A stretch of 64,000 bases of DNA, from assembly GCA_903813345.2 (NCBI GenBank), contig CAIIXF020000005.1, positions 34,599,375-34,663,374 on the forward strand. Direction: 5' to 3'. The notes below the pieces were generated by a model. That model was not told the origin of the DNA. It searched no databases and saw nothing but the letters and a program-made list of their open reading frames with translations. Both the position numbers and the translations under genes were made by a program. Positions 6,906 to 41,536 of this stretch are shown here, one piece after another. Each line of letters opens with the position of its first letter. The first letter of the stretch is position 1. Source of the stretch: Owenia fusiformis (Eukaryota > Annelida > Polychaeta > Sabellida > Oweniidae).

Positions 6906-9900
6906 CTTAATCGATTTTCAGAAAAAATTGAAAATTTCACAATCTTGAAATTTTCAAACTCTTCCTGAGAAGTCGTTTTTATTATTTCACATATGCTTGT
7001 GCACTGTAATCATTACAAAGACATCAAAGAACAACAAAAAACTTTAGTTTGAGAAAAAAGTGCCGTTTAAAGAATTTGAGAAGATTTTTTTCTAGGAGTA
7101 GCCCGTGAAAAACCGCTGATTCAAAATATCTGAACATTTCAGAAAATATACTTCAAACATATATCAAAAACGAAGGAGCAACGAAAATTTGAAAAATTAC
7201 CCGATAAAAAAATTGGGATCAAAATAAGGAAAAAAGTACTTTTCTCAAATTGTTTTTTTCTATTTTTTTTAATTTGTATGAGAGATTTCAAAATTCTAAA
7301 GCTCCTTCCATTTTGGGCTATATTAAAGGGATGTTTCAGAGAAATAAGAAAAAAAAATGTTCAGGGACCTTTGCCATGCTACTCTTTTTGTCAATTTTTC
7401 TGTCACATTTTCAGAGGACTCAAATTCCCATTCCAAAATGTTTACTGTTTCTATTTGCATTACCACAGTGAGCCTGGTTATATAAATGATAAGTGGAACT
7501 AAAAAATTGAGAGAAAATCCAACCAAAAGACAGTTAATTTTGATGGTCAGATTATACTCAAATGCCATGTGCTTCCTGGTTTCGGGCATCTTGGATTTTT
7601 TGATTAAGTTATAAGTTACCTTAATCTTATTGAAAATAACATGGCAGAGAAGCATCCAAATATAAGAGGCCACACACTTTATAAGCCAAACTAGAAGCAA
7701 TCCAAGATATACAAAAGTCATTCATGTACATTAGGAATATATTTTTCCACATATTATTGCAAAATGATATTTTGATTTCTTATTTTTAAGCTTTTACTGA
7801 CGCAATTAAACAACGAAATGGACTATACAGTATCTACACAGAAACCTGCATCAACACCTGACAGTGACATCTATTGGTGACAGAACCCTGGGAATATATC
7901 TCTTATACAACATGTATAAGAGATAAAGTGATATTTCCGGGGTTTGGTCACCAATAAATGTCACTGTCAGGTGTTGATACAGGTTCCTGTGACTATCTAT
8001 TAGTGTTGTCGCGATGTGCCATAATCGTACATCGATGCATCAGCAATTTTCAGTAGTAAACATCGATGCACATCGCGAAGTACATCGAGAAAAAGTCCGA
8101 AATAAGTGCACTGAAATACCGAACACTAATGCACTAAAATACTGGTACATCCGGGAACTTCTAGTAACCGTGAAATGAAAGTAAAGTAATTTTTTTTTTA
8201 GATTAATGGTTCATTTCGACGAACTAAAACCGTTTTAAAGCGAAACAATATCAGAAAACATTGGAAAATGAAATAAGACATGAGAAAGCTAAGCGATTTG
8301 CGTCAAAATAAGATAAGAAAGGGTGATTTTTATCAAATTTAATTTTTTTGAAAAACATCGATGTTTTGTTTCAGACATCGATGCATCGCCAGAATCAGCT
8401 TTGGCGATGGATATCGCGATGCATCAATTAATCGCGACAACACTACTATCTATAGGGCTGTCATACCATATTTGAAAAAGGGTGAGTTTTTTCCAGAAAA
8501 TACAAATGTACATGTACAGGCGGAGTGGCAAGTGATAGTCGTGTGGTTAAAGCCGCACATCTCTAGGCATAAGGACATGGTCCCAGGGATTTTTTTGGGG
8601 GAATGTTAAATGGTGCAATCTGTTATGACTAAAGAACAACATTTTTTGAAGTTTCACAGAAATAATGCACCCCCTGACACCTATGCATTAGGCATACACT
8701 CATGTGTGTAGAAAGACAGTAGGCCTAGGGAATCGTAGAAGTAATCTGGGTAAAATAAAATATATATGTATATATACTAAGCTTACCACTACTTTTTTGG
8801 CTTATGATTATAGGGCAATATTCAGGGGACAATCAACAGTGAGCACAAGCTAATAATTACCCAAAGTGAATATTTTGTCTCCTTCCTGAAAATCTGAGAG
8901 TCTTTCAAACCAAGGCCTAAATATTTCCTGAAATTTAATTTGGCCATTTTCTCAAAAATAACCTTGCCCAAAAAGGCCCATTTTTAGACCCAGATTTATC
9001 TACCCAGATGTAATACAGTGGGAATAAAAATCTATAATCTAATTCTGTAGTATTATTTCAACAAGTTTGTCATTGCCTTAAAACACATGACTCAGTCCAA
9101 CAGGGACATGGTGATTGCTATACATTATATTATGTTGAAACACAGTGAAGTTTCTGAAACTCATCTTTTTGGTTGAAAAAAGACAGGTAGTTGATACTGA
9201 ACAATGATTGCCATTATTAATTGATATTACAGGTGAGAGAATCTGTAGGACGGACAAGGGTCTTGTAGCTGGGAGAGGCACATATGAATGCAATGGACAA
9301 ATTTACTCATCTGTTGCTGGTATGCAGCTTAAGAGTGATAAAGATGGAAAGGTATATAAATTATTTATTAGTACTTGATTCATTGAAAGATGGCAGGGTA
9401 AATTGAACATCTGGGTATAAACATGCATGTAATGAATAAAAGTGAACGTATCTCATACTTTTACATAAGAATCTTAACTAGTAAACTAGGCTAAATACAT
9501 ATATGTACATAATCTTTAAAAGAAAATATTTGTAACACCTTGCAGGACAAATTATTAAATCCGCAAGTATCATTTTTGACTTCAGGTTCATATAGAAGTA
9601 CAACGCGAAATGAAGCAAAATGTTTTACCAGAAATTGGAATGATTGTTACAGCTAAGGTAGGTACAGCATAGTTACAGCTAAGGTAGGTACAGCATGGTG
9701 TGAAATGAAATTGGAATGATTGTTACAGCTAAGGTAGGTACAGCATGATGTGAAATGAAATTGGAATGATTGTTACAGCTAAGGTAGGTACAGCATGATG
9801 TGAAATGAAATTGGAATGATTGTTACAGCTTAGGTTGGTACAGCAATGTTACAGCTAAGGTAGGTACAGCATGATGTGAAATGAAATTGGAATGATTGTT

Positions 9901-12642
9901 ACAGCTAAGGTAGGTACAGCATGATGTGAAATTAAATATTGGAATGATTGTTAATGCTAAGGTAGGTACAGCAATGTTACAGCTAAGGTAGGTACAGCAT
10001 GATGTGAAATTAAATATTGGAATGATTGTTAATGCTAAGGTAGGTACAGCAATGTTACAGCTAAGGTAGGTACAGCATGATGTGAAATTAAATATTGGAA
10101 TGATTGTTAATGCTAAGGTAGGTACAGCAATGTTACAGCTAAGGTAGGTACAGCATGATGTGAAATGAAATTGGAATGATTGTTACAGCTAAGGTAGGTA
10201 CAGCATGGTGTGAAATGAAATTGGAATGATTGTTACAGCTAAGGTAGGTACAGCATGATGTGAAATGAAATTGGAATGATTGTTACAGCTAAGGTAGGTA
10301 CAGCATGATGTGAAATGAAATTGGAATGATTGTTACAGCTAAGGTAGGTACAGCATGGTGTGAAATGAAATTGGAATGATTGTTACAGCTAAGGTAGGTA
10401 CAGCATGATGTGAAATGAAATTGGAATGATTGTTACAGCTAAGGTAGGTACAGCATGATGTGAAATGAAATTGGAATGATTGTTACAGCTAAGGTAGGTA
10501 CAGCATAGTTACAGCTAAGGTAGGTACAGCATGGTGTGAAATGAAATTGGAATGATTGTTACAGCTAAGGTAGGTACAGCATGATGTGAAATGAAATTGG
10601 AATGATTGTTACAGCTAAGGTAGGTACAGCATGATGTGAAATGAAATTGGAATGATTGTTACAGCTTAGGTTGGTACAGCAATGTTACAGCTAAGGTAGG
10701 TACAGCATGATGTGAAATGAAATTGGAATGATTGTTACAGCTAAGGTAGGTACAGCAATGTTACAGCTAAGGTAGGTACAGCATGATGTGAAATGAAATT
10801 GGAATAATTGTTACAGCTAAGGTAGGTACAGCAATGTTACAGCTAAGGTAGGTACAGCATGGTGTGAAATGAAAGTGGAATGATTTTACAGCCACGTTTA
10901 GTTTGACTGCAATGTGAGTAAAATAATGAAATAGAGGGTAGAACAACAGAAGGTCCCATATGAATTATTATTAAACTTTTTTCAAAAAACATCACCGACT
11001 ATGAAAGCTAATGAAATGTAGTCTGATAGGGCTTAGCTACCAAGAGTAAATTGAATTAAAATAACAGTATTTTATATAATATGATTCAATCACAAGTTTG
11101 GCTTTTCCTTAACCTTAAATCATGGCCTCCACCTATTGCATTTTATAATCATATTCATATGCATGTCCACATTATTTATTTATTTGTACTGTTTCAGGTA
11201 ACAAATGTCAACCCGAGACAGTGCAAATGTGCAATCATAAGTGTGGAAACAACCAGTCTATCAGATCCATTCCGTGGAGTCATAAGGTACAGTAGCATTA
11301 GTGAATTGCAATAATACCGAAAGGCAATAATGCTGAATTCAGCCTAAGCCCTGTCATACATATGTTAACTTTTTGCAATTTTGAATAAAGAAATCATAAA
11401 AACTAAAAATATTAGAAAATTGTACTTTATTAAAGTTATTTAGCTACCAATTTCAGCTACATGACGTTACATCGGCATTATCGATAGCCTGTATCCAGTA
11501 TATTTATAGTATTTCACTGCTGTGTTTGTTATTTACTCATACATTCTCCATCTACAGGAGTGAAGATGTTAGGTCAACAGAACGTGACAAAGTTGAAATG
11601 TACAAATGCTTCAAACCTGGAGATGTTATCTTGGCTCGTGTTTTGAGTCTTGGGGATGCTCAGTCTTACATCCTCACCACCGCAGAAAATGAACTTGGGG
11701 TGGTTATAGCACTCAGTGAATCAGGTAAAGTATATAAACATTTGTACTTGTTCATCCTTCCACAGGTGGACTGTCTAAATTGTATACCTCTATGTCTTAC
11801 ATCCTCACCACCGCTGAAAATGAACTTGGTGTGGTTATAGCACTCAGTGAATCAGGTAAAGTATATAAACATTTGTACTTGTTCCTCCCTCCAAAGGTGG
11901 ACTGTCTGAATTGTATACCTCTATGTCTTACATCCTCACCACCGCTGAAAATGAACTTGGTGTGGTTATAGCACTCAGTGAATCAGGTAAAGTATATAAA
12001 CATTTGTACTTGTTCATCCTTCCACAGGTGGATTGTCTAAATTGTATACCTCTATGTCTTACATTCTCACCACTGCAGAAAATGAACATGTGGTAATTAC
12101 ACTCAGTGAATCTGATAATATGTATAAAAATTTGTATTTGTTCATTCTCCCACAGGTGGACAGTCTAAATTGTACACCTCAAGGCAATCACAGTGGTACC
12201 ACTGGTGTACCTCTAGATCTACTATGAATTGAGGTGTCAGTTTTGATTGAACTTAAGGCTAAATAATGGCAATTTGTTGCTTACAATCCCAAGTTTATAT
12301 CTGAAAAACTATTCAAGATAGCTCATCACATATGAATACAGTAAAATGTATATCTGATCATCTCTTTAACTGAACATCTCTTGATGTAAACACTTTTTTG
12401 GACTTGCCATAGACTTCCATGATGAAATACCTAAAATTGTGAACAAGTGCCAATATGAACACTTTTGGCAAATACAAGTTGGATTAAAATTAGACACCTG
12501 GCTTTACTGTAGTTTGTTGTGTTTTCCAGGTGCTACCATGGTACCCATCAGTTGGAATGAGATGCAGTGCCCCGCCACATATGCTAAAGAATACAGAAAG
12601 GTTGCCAAGGTGCAGTCCGATCATATAACACAAAATGGATGA
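6211..12642 (+). CDS. EXOSC1: Exosome complex component CSL4
   Basis: Cap subunit of the RNA exosome, which degrades and trims RNA from the 3' end in nucleus and cytoplasm. Six exons join in frame: 6211-6238, 9233-9351, 9586-9657, 11198-11286, 11558-11724 and 12530-12642. They give 195 residues, the human length as I recall it. Exon 1 is only 28 nt (MEHLPQHPR plus one base); the ATG is in strong context, ACCATGG, and its phase-1 donor completes the glycine before ERIC. Signatures are [15 protein letters not shown] (N-terminal domain), [29 protein letters not shown] and [11 protein letters not shown] (S1 domain), and [12 protein letters not shown]. Exon 3 and exon 5 ends have both been tandemly amplified into the following introns, so alternative products are possible. 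Exon 1 is the least certain part. Confidence 0.92.
7837..7991. mobile_element. Short foldback element in EXOSC1 intron 1
   Basis: A nearly complete palindrome of about 155 bp. CACAGAAACCTGCATCAACA at the left matches the reverse complement of TGTTGATACAGGTTCCTGTG at the right, and pairing continues through GACAGTGACAT and TTGGTGAC to a TATAAGAGATA hairpin centre. No coding capacity. It is probably a miniature inverted-repeat transposable element of unknown family. Confidence 0.7.
8001..8445. mobile_element. Non-autonomous hAT-like element with 8-bp target duplication
   Basis: Terminal inverted repeats TAGTGTTGTCGCGAT begin at 8001 and end at 8445. They are flanked by the perfect 8-bp direct repeat CTATCTAT at 7993-8000 and 8446-8453. 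An 8-bp duplication with TAG-type termini is the established hallmark of the hAT superfamily. The 445 bp interior has no transposase reading frame but carries sub-terminal repeats of CGATGCATC. It sits immediately beside the 7837-7991 foldback element. Confidence 0.85.
9631..10890 (+). repeat. Minisatellite built from EXOSC1 exon 3 end and its splice donor
   Basis: The main unit is 50 bp, with shorter 26-bp units mixed in. It contains GGAATGATTGTTACAGCTAAG followed by GTAGGTACAGCATGATGTGA. The first copy overlaps the true 3' end of exon 3 (codons for GMIVTAK) and the genuine donor GTAGGT at 9658. By eye there are roughly 25-30 copies of the AAG|GTAGGT junction. Unit lengths are not multiples of three, and TAG or TGA follows the junction within a few codons, so using a distal donor would frameshift or truncate the protein. 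Confidence 0.95.
11664..12190 (+). repeat. 131-bp tandem repeat of EXOSC1 exon 5 end plus intron start
   Basis: TCTTACATCCTCACC recurs at 11664, 11795, 11926 and, with one change, 12057: four units at an exact 131-bp period, then a partial fifth. Each unit holds the last 20 codons of exon 5 (residues about 139-158), the donor GTAAAG, and downstream intron including a pyrimidine-rich acceptor. Copies 2 and 3 keep acceptor and donor, making 90-nt in-frame pseudo-exons at 11766-11855 and 11897-11986. Copy 4 has lost three bases of coding sequence, and its donor reads GATAAT. Confidence 0.95.
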
Positions 12643-35530: not shown

Positions 35531-37287
35531 ATGAGTGACGCAGAAACCATCCCACAAAGTGATGTCGTGGATTTATTGCATCGAGATCCTAAAGGCATCA
35601 ACGCTCATCTTCAAGTAAGCAATTTTGAATGACGCATCTATTTTCTATGTCACCACCAGAAGTAATGGCATATTGTTATAGTCTATAATTTTTTGGATGG
35701 TGTTCGGAATTCGTAGGTTTGTGTTAAGCGTTCGACGGTTGGCGTCCGTAACAAATGGCAGGTGTTGACATTTTCCTTGTTTTTGGTTGTTATGTAGAAG
35801 GGTTGGGTCATAGTCATACACTAGAGCTTTTTGTTTAGATTAGTTTATTATCGTCTAAGAGATTTAAGGGTTTCTATATATGAGCCAGCAGGCCACAGGA
35901 AAAGGGGTCTTATCACAGATTTTTTAAATTAATATTCTGATTTTTTGTTTATCTTAGAAAGCACAAAGAGACTTTTCAAATGAGCCATGGCTTATGTCTT
36001 AACTATATTTTCTTGCATATATAGACCAAAAAGTCGGATTTGAATTTAGGACATTTTCCTCTTAATCTTGGGCACATTTTTGGCTCTGTAGCACAATTCA
36101 ATTTTTTGTGATAAGACCGGTTATCCTATGGCCAGGCTCATATTTTATTTTTCTAGTTTTTCGTAAAACTGGTTGTTAAGAAGTTTTTGGAAAAAATATG
36201 CACGTGTCATTTACCCTCCCTAAATATGGTTTGTAATTATGGACTCTCAGAGCTTATTATGTCGCAATAGTTATTGAACGAGCCATGAAGTGATTGTTGG
36301 TTTCAATTGATTTTGTATTTCATTAGTTTGTGTTCATTGATCTCATATTTTCTTTGCCCTTTCTTCAAATATGGAAACTTCGTTAATAACATTTGCTGTA
36401 GTTCTGAGTGTACGTTTGGAATGTTTTAATGACTTTTTGAAAGTTTGTCAATGGTTATTAGCTCACGTAAAAACTTTGTAAAACTTTGCAAAATTTTGCA
36501 TTGGTTTGAGTCTGCTTTCATTAATGTTGGTCATATTAAACTTTCAATTGAACATCTCTAACTGGTTTCTGTTTGTTTGATATGATCAACAAATATGTCG
36601 AGTAAACACAAATCGACGTCACTCCCTATAGTAGTTCCGTCGACTACTTTAAAAGTTGCGAAATGAAATGGCTTACAGTACTAAATTTCAAATAGCCATT
36701 AGTTAAACTTTAATGTCTAGTTTAAGAACCTTTATTCTTACTATTGAAAATGAATTCTAGCAATACTATTCTACATGAATGTACTTATTGAGATTCGATA
36801 AACTCGAGTTCTTCTGAGAAAATGAGGATTGTGTTTGTTTACTTATAGTGACATACATGATGGTATCCATCCACCAGACCATGAATGCTTGATGTATATC
36901 TAAACATAGTATTGATACATATTTCTGATACATATTTGTCTCCTTTTTCAGGGAGTTGCCTTCGATGAATGCCTTGCCGAACCCGATGCCGCCCATTCCA
37001 TGGACTGCATCTGGTCCAACTCCTACAAATGCTTTGAATGCGGCAAAGGTCTCTGCTACAAACTCCTGACCTGTCTCTGCGGCATCTGCATTGCCTTGTA
37101 CTGGGGATGCACCTTTGGAATTATCGCATTTGAGCACGTTTGGTGCATCACTCCCAACCTGAAGGTCCTTGACATCAACTGTAACGTCTGCCAGAGGATC
37201 TACGGTCTGTGCGTACATTGCATGTGCGATCCTTGCTGCGATGCATTCGCTATCCTCTTCAAGTACTTTGGCAAAGGAGGCGAATGA
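35531..37287 (+). CDS. Caveolin (paralogue A)
   Basis: Caveolin, the integral membrane scaffold of caveolae. Two exons, 35531-35614 and 36952-37287, join in phase 0 to give 139 residues. The N-terminal DVVDLLHRDPKGIN matches the DLVNRDPK region of caveolin-1; FDECLAEPDAAHSMDCIW matches the family signature FEDVIAEPEGTHSFDGIW. The membrane hairpin (about CGICIALYWGCTFGIIAFEH) and IYGLCVHCMCDP follow. The protein is shorter than human caveolin-1 (178 residues from memory), mainly at the N-terminus. Striking feature: 17 cysteines in exon 2 (111 residues), where caveolin-1 has three palmitoylated cysteines. A poly(A) signal lies at 37,589. Tandem paralogue B follows 3 kb downstream on the same strand. 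Confidence 0.93.
35645..35775 (+). repeat. Dispersed repeat, copy 4 (caveolin A intron)
   Basis: In opposite orientation to the copies at 3145 and 23,445: TATGTCACCACCAGAAGT at the left and CCGTAACAAATGGCAGGTG near the right. Confidence 0.5.
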
Positions 37288-37588
37288 GACTGACGTGTAC
37301 GTATCAGGAAAGACCAAGCTAGGTGCAAGGACTCTGGACAATTACTTTCCTACGTATATCATTACATACATTATAATGAATACATAGTTGTATATATGTC
37401 CCACTACTTATAAAAGTGGCGTTCCACAGGGATTTATGTCCGGACCACCAATGTTTATTTAGAAGACATGGACTAGTTCTGTGTGTATATTTTTGTAAAT
37501 TGTTAATAGTGTTTTGTCCTAACATGGATATAAGAATAGCATAAATGTTTTGTATTCAAGCAATTTTTAACCTGTTTTTATGATACTT

Positions 37589-40203: not shown

Positions 40204-41297
40204 ATGTCTAGTGACGTCGTGGATTTATTGAACCGTGATCCCAAGAGCATCAATGCTCATCTTCAGGTAAGTCAATTTTAACAAAATCGAGTATTTTAGC
40301 GTTTTTCCGCATTTTGATCTTTGTTTCGGGTAACTTACTTTCTTGGAAGCCCTTGCCATAACAACGAATGGATTTAAAGTATCTAACTAATGTTTTATTT
40401 TCAACTGCGGAAAATACTATTTAGTACCACTGAAACAAACAAATTGTTTGAGATAACGAATGATTTGCCATAATTGCATGAAAACTTTTAATTTTAATTT
40501 ACCTAAAGATAAATGTATCGAAAATCCATGATCTCAAACAATTTGTTTGTTTTAAACACTTATTAACATTACAGTTCCATCAAGGTAGTCTGTTGTTGAT
40601 ATCTACTGGAATCATTCAACTATTTTATTCCTGCCATTTTCATTTCATTTTACCGGTTGCTATAACGACCATTATACTACAATGTATATATGTTTAAAGT
40701 CGATATTTGATGATCGTCTAGGAAACGTGATTGTTTAAAAGAACTTTGCATAAAACTTTTGGTATAGAAATTCATTAATCCAGCCAAAATATTTATCTAA
40801 GATGAACTTAATATTTGATTCATGAAGTCGTTTTAGCATTTTCAAATTCAAATACAATGGTAAACTTAGAATGACTCTAATTATCAACTAAGAGATCAAA
40901 ATCTGTTAACTAATATTTTTGTTTATGTTTAGGCATATTACTTATACTTTTCATATGATTCTCCTTTCAGGGAGTTGCCTTCGATGAATGCATCGCCGAA
41001 CCCGATGCCGCCCATTCCATGGACTGCATCTGGTCCAACTCCTACAAATGCTTTGAATGCGGCAAAGGTCTCTGCTACAAACTTCTGACCTGTATGTGTG
41101 GTATTTGCATTGCCTTGTACTGGGGATGCACATTCGGAATTATCGCATTTGAGCACGTTTGGTGCATCACTCCCAACCTGAAGGTCCTCGACATCAACTG
41201 CAACATCTGCCAGAGGCTCTACGGTCTGTGCGTGCATTGCATGTGCGATCCTTGCTGCGACGCATTCGCAATTCTCTTCAAATATTTCCAGAAATAG
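40204..41297 (+). CDS. Caveolin (paralogue B)
   Basis: Second caveolin, two exons: 40204-40266 and 40971-41297, phase 0, giving 129 residues. It starts MSSDVVDLLNRDPKSINAH, so it lacks seven residues found near the N-terminus of paralogue A and ends FKYFQK instead of FKYFGKGGE. The signature FDECIAEPDAAHSMDCIW, the hairpin and all 17 cysteines are kept. Exon 2 is about 94 percent identical to that of A by eye, whereas intron 1 is unrelated, indicating tandem duplication with strong selection or gene conversion on exon 2. A poly(A) signal lies at 41,537. No TATA box was found. Confidence 0.93.
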
Positions 41298-41536
41298 ACA
41301 GGGTATTGCTGAAAAATGATGGACAGTTCAATCGGACTATGATGGACATGATCACCGGACACTGAACGTGATTATTGAGCAAACATAATGTATAACACAA
41401 ACACATGTATACATGTGAACAGTATTGACTACATGTGATGTATTCATCGACTGTAGGAAAAATTGAAGCAGCATGGTGTACTGTATTTGTAATGTGGAAC
41501 TTAAGTTCGTTTCTATCTGTAAATACGTCTTTCACT

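Follow-up and report, generated by a model that had tools for sequence, protein, structure and literature searches.

Minisatellites spanning exon–intron boundaries in EXOSC1 and at other conserved exons of Owenia fusiformis

The window analysed here is a 64,000-nt stretch of the Owenia fusiformis genome with a G+C content of about 35%, and its plus strand carries a gene for the exosome subunit EXOSC1/CSL4. The gene model covers exons 2–6, located at 9233–9351 (exon 2), 9586–9657 (exon 3), 11198–11286 (exon 4), 11558–11724 (exon 5) and 12530–12642 (exon 6, including the stop codon); exon 1 was not located. Exons 2, 3 and 4 were assigned by reading of frame and splice sites together with the continuous spliced translation. 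Exon 5 was assigned by its boundaries and its matches to the Pfam EXOSC1 profile and to CSL4 chains, and exon 6 by the spliced translation and by its acceptor, which has the highest score among the 3,252 plus-strand AGs of the window. Exons 5 and 6 encode a 93-residue peptide whose matches in the PDB include exosome CSL4 chains (6d6q_I, with an E value of 2e-38, from an entry that we take to be human) and which also matches the Pfam EXOSC1 profile, in agreement with the initial annotation of the gene as EXOSC1. Elsewhere in the window, two similar open frames on the minus strand (36766–37341 and 40938–41327) share stretches that include HAMHAQTVEPLADV and VGVGPDAVHGMGGIGFG and look like a local gene duplication.

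The end of exon 5 is repeated at the start of intron 5. The array, hereafter array 2, was detected by TRF at 11663–12180 of the plus strand with a period of 131 nt, 4.0 copies, 91% matches and a score of 840, which is far above chance. Each unit consists of the last 62 nt of exon 5 followed by 69 nt of intron 5, the latter starting with GTAAAG. Copies 1–3 are in exact register, with between 3 and 6 differences over the 131 positions, and their donors start at 11725, 11856 and 11987. The acceptor AGs within the array end at 11765, 11896, 12027 and 12155. Copy 4 shows 85% identity across 91 nt and carries ATAATA at the donor position; read from its own acceptor, this donor-less copy stays open from 12028 to a TGA at 12225–12227. 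The initial annotation had described four repeats at exactly 131 bp. The four copies are there, together with the GTAAAG donors kept in copies 2 and 3, the acceptors derived from intron sequence and the donor lost from copy 4, as that annotation had them; the last spacing within the unit is 128 owing to a 3-nt deletion in copy 4, and the others are 131.

Within the exonic part, copies 2 and 3 show two changes relative to copy 1, both synonymous. Copy 4 differs from copy 1 by five synonymous and two non-synonymous changes besides the deletion, and its amino-acid changes and the deletion look derived when set against the CSL4 chain. Since copy 1 is a constrained exon, the synonymous excess cannot be assigned to copy 4 and weighs neither way; for this reason, coding constraint on the array copies was discarded as an argument. 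The duplicated residues begin at residue 37 of the exon 5–6 peptide and the Pfam EXOSC1 match stops at residue 32, so that they lie outside the S1-like profile, which does not support the repeated S1-domain strand for which they had been taken. Presumably, they are part of the C-terminal zinc-ribbon-like region of CSL4. Intron 5 also holds three weak long-range inverted repeats.

A second boundary array of EXOSC1, absent from the initial annotation, is located at 9631–10892 of the plus strand (array 1). It repeats the last 27 nt of exon 3, ending in GTTACAGCTAAG, joined to the donor GTAGGT and the first part of intron 3. According to TRF and the donor list, 29 donor copies occur at 9652–10850 with spacings of 26, 50 or 52 nt; 27 of them are exact, and the other two have GGTTGGT. 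When arrays 1 and 2 were searched in the 498-Mb assembly, the sole match of each was its own locus, in a kind of search that can miss repeats. Both introns 3 and 5 of EXOSC1 open with arrays of exon end plus donor. The reading spliced via the first copies of both arrays gives a continuous frame that matches CSL4, and the coding frame is unbroken via the first array copy only.

Copies 2 and 3 of array 2 each contain a would-be cassette exon of 90 nt, at 11766–11855 (cassette A) and 11897–11986 (cassette B) of the plus strand. Both are stop-free and symmetric in phase 1-1, exactly at the coordinates first proposed, and their length preserves the frame. What has been copied is just the 3′ 62 nt of exon 5, without the exon 5 acceptor, rather than a whole exon as in tandem exon duplication. 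An open symmetric frame is weak evidence for an exon, since one length in three is divisible by three by chance, the exonic portion inherited its open frame, and cassette B is itself a copy of A. Splicing from exon 5 to cassette B would remove a workable intron of 172 nt, and splicing to cassette A would require one of 41 nt (11725–11765). To put these lengths in context, myosin, PRPF8, CCT/HSP60 and kinesin matches gave 102 adjacent exon pairs and 81 resolved introns, which range from 126 to 2,218 nt with a median of 330 nt; none is shorter than 126 nt, a minimum that is strong rather than absolute because the survey could overlook short introns readable in frame. An earlier set of 41 intron estimates (36 pairs fetched, 28 resolved) has the same minimum of 126 nt and a median of 328 nt.

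Acceptors were scored with a pooled model built on 25 reference sites, three of the 28 available sites being left out for a large profile gap or for belonging to locus L010; it replaced per-position weights from the 28 introns, which were overfitted. The cassette B acceptor, CCAAAG, scores −4.72, lower than all 25 reference acceptors. The acceptors of cassette A and copy 4 both score 1.33 and rank 3 of 25, a value attained by 243 of the 3,252 plus-strand AGs of the window (3.8 per kb). By a plain count of pyrimidines, the cassette acceptors (12 and 13 of 15) look normal beside that of exon 6 (11), and this counts against the reading that they are not used. Copies 1–3 have one and the same donor sequence, with a score of 17 of 28, and hence the donor itself gives the first copy no advantage. 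A transcript spliced from a later donor, with no cassette acceptor used, would run into a stop (for exon 3 the TAG at 9670, for exon 5 the TAG at 11838). With a 41-nt intron set against a 126-nt minimum, and with weak acceptors, new cassette exons at EXOSC1 appear unlikely from these sequence features. The birth of alternative exons suggested in the initial annotation is further opposed by the frequency of boundary arrays across the genome and by unit lengths that ignore the frame, as described below.

Arrays at exon edges are not special to EXOSC1 and are common in the Owenia fusiformis genome. Among 228 other conserved exons with 456 boundaries, 17 boundary-spanning arrays were counted (about 3.7%), each of which was read individually; 10 are on the acceptor side and 7 on the donor side. 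In myosin genes, one array repeats the exon end VLIRPLTMHQ plus the donor as 41 nt × 4 (L014), one is 34 × 4 and includes only about 4 exon bases (L012), and one is on the acceptor side with 61 × 4.5 (L016). The CCT/kinesin gene set contributes arrays of 83 × 9 (L027), 96 × 4 (L029), 53 × 4.6 and 28 × 16.6 (both L030), 57 × 17 and 76 × 4.2 (both L045) and 87 × 3 (L050); the array of L025b, like that of L012, takes in only about 4 exon bases. At a kinesin exon start (L034, G000:C2:23266345–23269188), a unit of 159 nt is repeated 17.9 times, with a stop at the end of the earlier copies and an in-frame read-on by the last copy. The unit length is divisible by three in 7 of 22 arrays, which is the chance level; these 22 comprise the 17 counted arrays, L014, one array of L045, L034 and the two of EXOSC1, the commonest or smallest period being taken where periods are mixed. 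Indifference of unit length to the frame is expected if the arrays leave by splicing and are untranslated.

Two further counts of this kind were made. A first boundary scan flagged one of 28 introns (the L005 donor, with a 29/36 copy at +367, a candidate for the “mirage” minisatellites known from lancelets), and it was dropped in favour of TRF arrays because it overlooked short exon shares and the relevant introns were outside its list. An intron-based count gave 12 arrays, 5 on the acceptor side, 2 on the donor side and 5 in the interior, and includes L034, which had been seen beforehand, and L054, which is false. Some other features deserve mention in their own right. A 136-nt × 7 array with 99% matches (L032, G000:C222:10813–11765) lies between two CCT-type gene matches on a 25-kb unplaced contig. 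A muscle-type myosin gene (L017, G000:C9:37986009–37994334) has 12 tandem matches to one stretch of the motor domain, at about profile positions 18–84, which suggests a large alternative-exon cluster. Two Hox genes (L019 and L020) have a UbdA-type tail after the homeodomain. Such a tail is a mark of protostomes, and its presence here suggests a protostome and not a lancelet.

Is the number of arrays at boundaries higher than expected by chance? The discovery set comprised 48 loci with 150,248 bases and 188 exon matches, in which 32 merged arrays had a period of at least 20 and a score of at least 80. Coding matches have 25 arrays within 300 nt, and by a 10-nt rule 14 of these span a boundary, against 3.4 expected from random placement on collapsed sequence, and 0 of 20,000 trials reached 14. 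When the arrays were read singly, one of the 14 was false (L054) and one near miss (L028) was real. A replicate with the same thresholds drew on 40 myosin and kinesin exons outside the discovery set (40,665 bases, 10 arrays) and gave 4 of 8 spanning arrays by rule and 3 of 8 after reading. It is weak by itself, with 3 of 8 against 0.82–1.39 expected and P ranging from 0.01 to 0.12 by setting. For the combined sets, corrected after reading and taken with 300-nt flanks, a 3-nt threshold gives 17 of 33 boundary-spanning arrays where 5.99 are expected, and a 10-nt threshold gives 16 of 33 where 4.05 are expected, with 0 of 50,000 trials reaching the observed number in either case; with 200-nt flanks, the corresponding values are 17 of 30 against 6.73 (1 of 50,000 trials) and 16 of 30 against 4.62 (0 of 50,000).

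Several assignments define these counts. L034, chosen after being seen, and L017, the Mhc exon cluster, were excluded. The array of L014 and one of those of L045 are genuine, but their exons are outside the hit list and they were counted as “far”. For L054 and the second array of L079, the profile match ran into the intron; these are false and were counted as non-spanning. L028 is real with a match overlap of just 5 nt and was counted at the 3-nt threshold only. Arrays fall on boundaries at roughly three times the rate given by random placement, with both donor and acceptor sides affected, in a sample of four gene families where profile matches approximate the exon ends and one reader judged the arrays by eye. 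This excess of arrays at exon–intron boundaries is the new point of the present work.

Exon end, donor and intron start are repeated at two exons of EXOSC1, and this supports the reading that introns 3 and 5 start with mirage minisatellites, the first donor being used and the array being spliced out, which from the sequence we regard as highly probable. A tandem duplication that straddled the 3′ end of the exon and the donor would have provided the seed. The arrays would later have expanded and been homogenised, up to 29 donors after exon 3 and four units after exon 5; copies 2 and 3 of array 2, almost the same as copy 1, would be young, and copy 4 at the edge would have decayed. Splicing would run from the first donor to the strong acceptor at the start of the next real exon and remove the entire array as intron, with the in-frame cassettes as by-products of the repeat. 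Tandem duplications of this sort would be tolerated because splicing uses the outermost site. The frame of copy 4, which stays open with its 3-nt deletion, counts against this reading.

Could cassette B, or A and B exclusively, instead be a functional alternative exon that lengthens CSL4 by 30 residues close to its C-terminus? Gaps of 41 nt would then bar joint inclusion, as with mutually exclusive exons governed by steric interference, a known mechanism with 57 human cases described (PMC5740500). The open frames in phase 1-1, the intact GTAAAG donors, the pyrimidine-rich acceptors, the workable intron from exon 5 to cassette B and the differences of copies 2 and 3 from copy 1, purely synonymous in the exonic part, would all fit such a role. 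Nevertheless we consider it quite unlikely, given an acceptor of cassette B below every reference, the 41-nt intron needed for cassette A, synonymous changes too few to show constraint, and similar arrays at many other exon ends, the acceptor side included. Occasional inclusion of cassette B, or of copy 4 as a terminal exon, may still occur. The spare donors might also act as decoys that compete with the first donor, run into the premature stops named above and thereby reduce the output of EXOSC1, perhaps through a leak that is tolerated or regulated. Exon 3 is followed by 28 additional donors, 26 of which have the exact sequence of the first copy, and exon 5 by two identical ones, and read-through stops at once in both introns; lancelet mirages, however, are reported without disturbance of splicing (PMC3087553), and a decoy role seems very unlikely. 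That both arrays are false repeats created by assembly is scarcely credible, as the array copies carry private differences, and unrelated boundary arrays with other units are found on many chromosome-sized contigs.

Mirages have previously been described from a handful of lancelet genes, and repeats of this build here occupy several percent of the sampled conserved boundaries in a protostome. Two questions that RNA-seq can answer are raised. How does the spliceosome choose one among up to 29 near-identical donors? And do boundary duplications feed the birth of exons and introns? In genomes with boundary arrays, gene prediction may yield false tandem exons. It is conceivable, though we hold the idea only tentatively and think it rather less probable than its opposite, that tandem duplications arise preferentially at the exon–intron junctions of this protostome, which would then be a mutational hot spot. 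In that case, a junction-linked process (connected with splicing, R-loops, nucleosomes or base composition) would supply spare splice sites throughout the genome, from which new exons and introns would arise.

Repeats that multiply or copy splice signals are found in other systems. An interferon-induced human transcript reportedly owes multiple splice donors to a minisatellite (Nucleic Acids Res, 1995); there, as in EXOSC1, a splice donor is multiplied, but going by the title the donors of that transcript are used. In potato RdRp, an intron was gained by tandem duplication across an intron–exon boundary, which copies splice signals as in EXOSC1 (PMC4974935); two copies made a new intron there, whereas the EXOSC1 repeats are long arrays inside existing introns. 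The tandem repeats of UBC hold dual-specific AGGT splice sites, so that units could act as donor or acceptor and expansions are removed by splicing (PMC10809524). This resembles the present case, except that the UBC units are coding and in frame and the unit lengths of the Owenia fusiformis arrays ignore the frame. Internal tandem repeats also occur at exon–intron boundaries in human segmental duplications, where minisatellite expansion likewise alters gene structure (PMC2812944); those are recent paralogues with transcripts, in contrast to the single-copy conserved genes considered here.

The closest counterparts are the mirage minisatellites of lancelets, which span exon–intron boundaries, on either side, in Adh and globin (BflGb6 and BflGb9) genes, carry AG/GT signals in many units, are unstable in length, have homogenised inner units and a diverged edge unit, and leave regular splicing undisturbed by RT-PCR (PMC3087553). 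A mirage is also described in TnC, and similar repeats in PGBD5 (PMC3902484). The authors of the lancelet work proposed that a mirage unit may turn into a real exon, which is the very idea of the initial annotation. For mirages outside lancelets, no report was recognised among titles and abstracts of the open literature, subscription journals being largely uncovered. The EXOSC1 arrays share with the lancelet mirages units that span the boundary, in both arrays; donors within the units (29 in array 1 and those of copies 1–3 in array 2); a real boundary at the outer edge of the array, where the coding frame is continuous; and, in array 2, homogenised inner copies with a diverged copy 4 at the edge. 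What sets them apart is a host genome whose Hox genes are of protostome type, their position at two donors within a single housekeeping gene, and the company of arrays at 17 of 456 other conserved boundaries.
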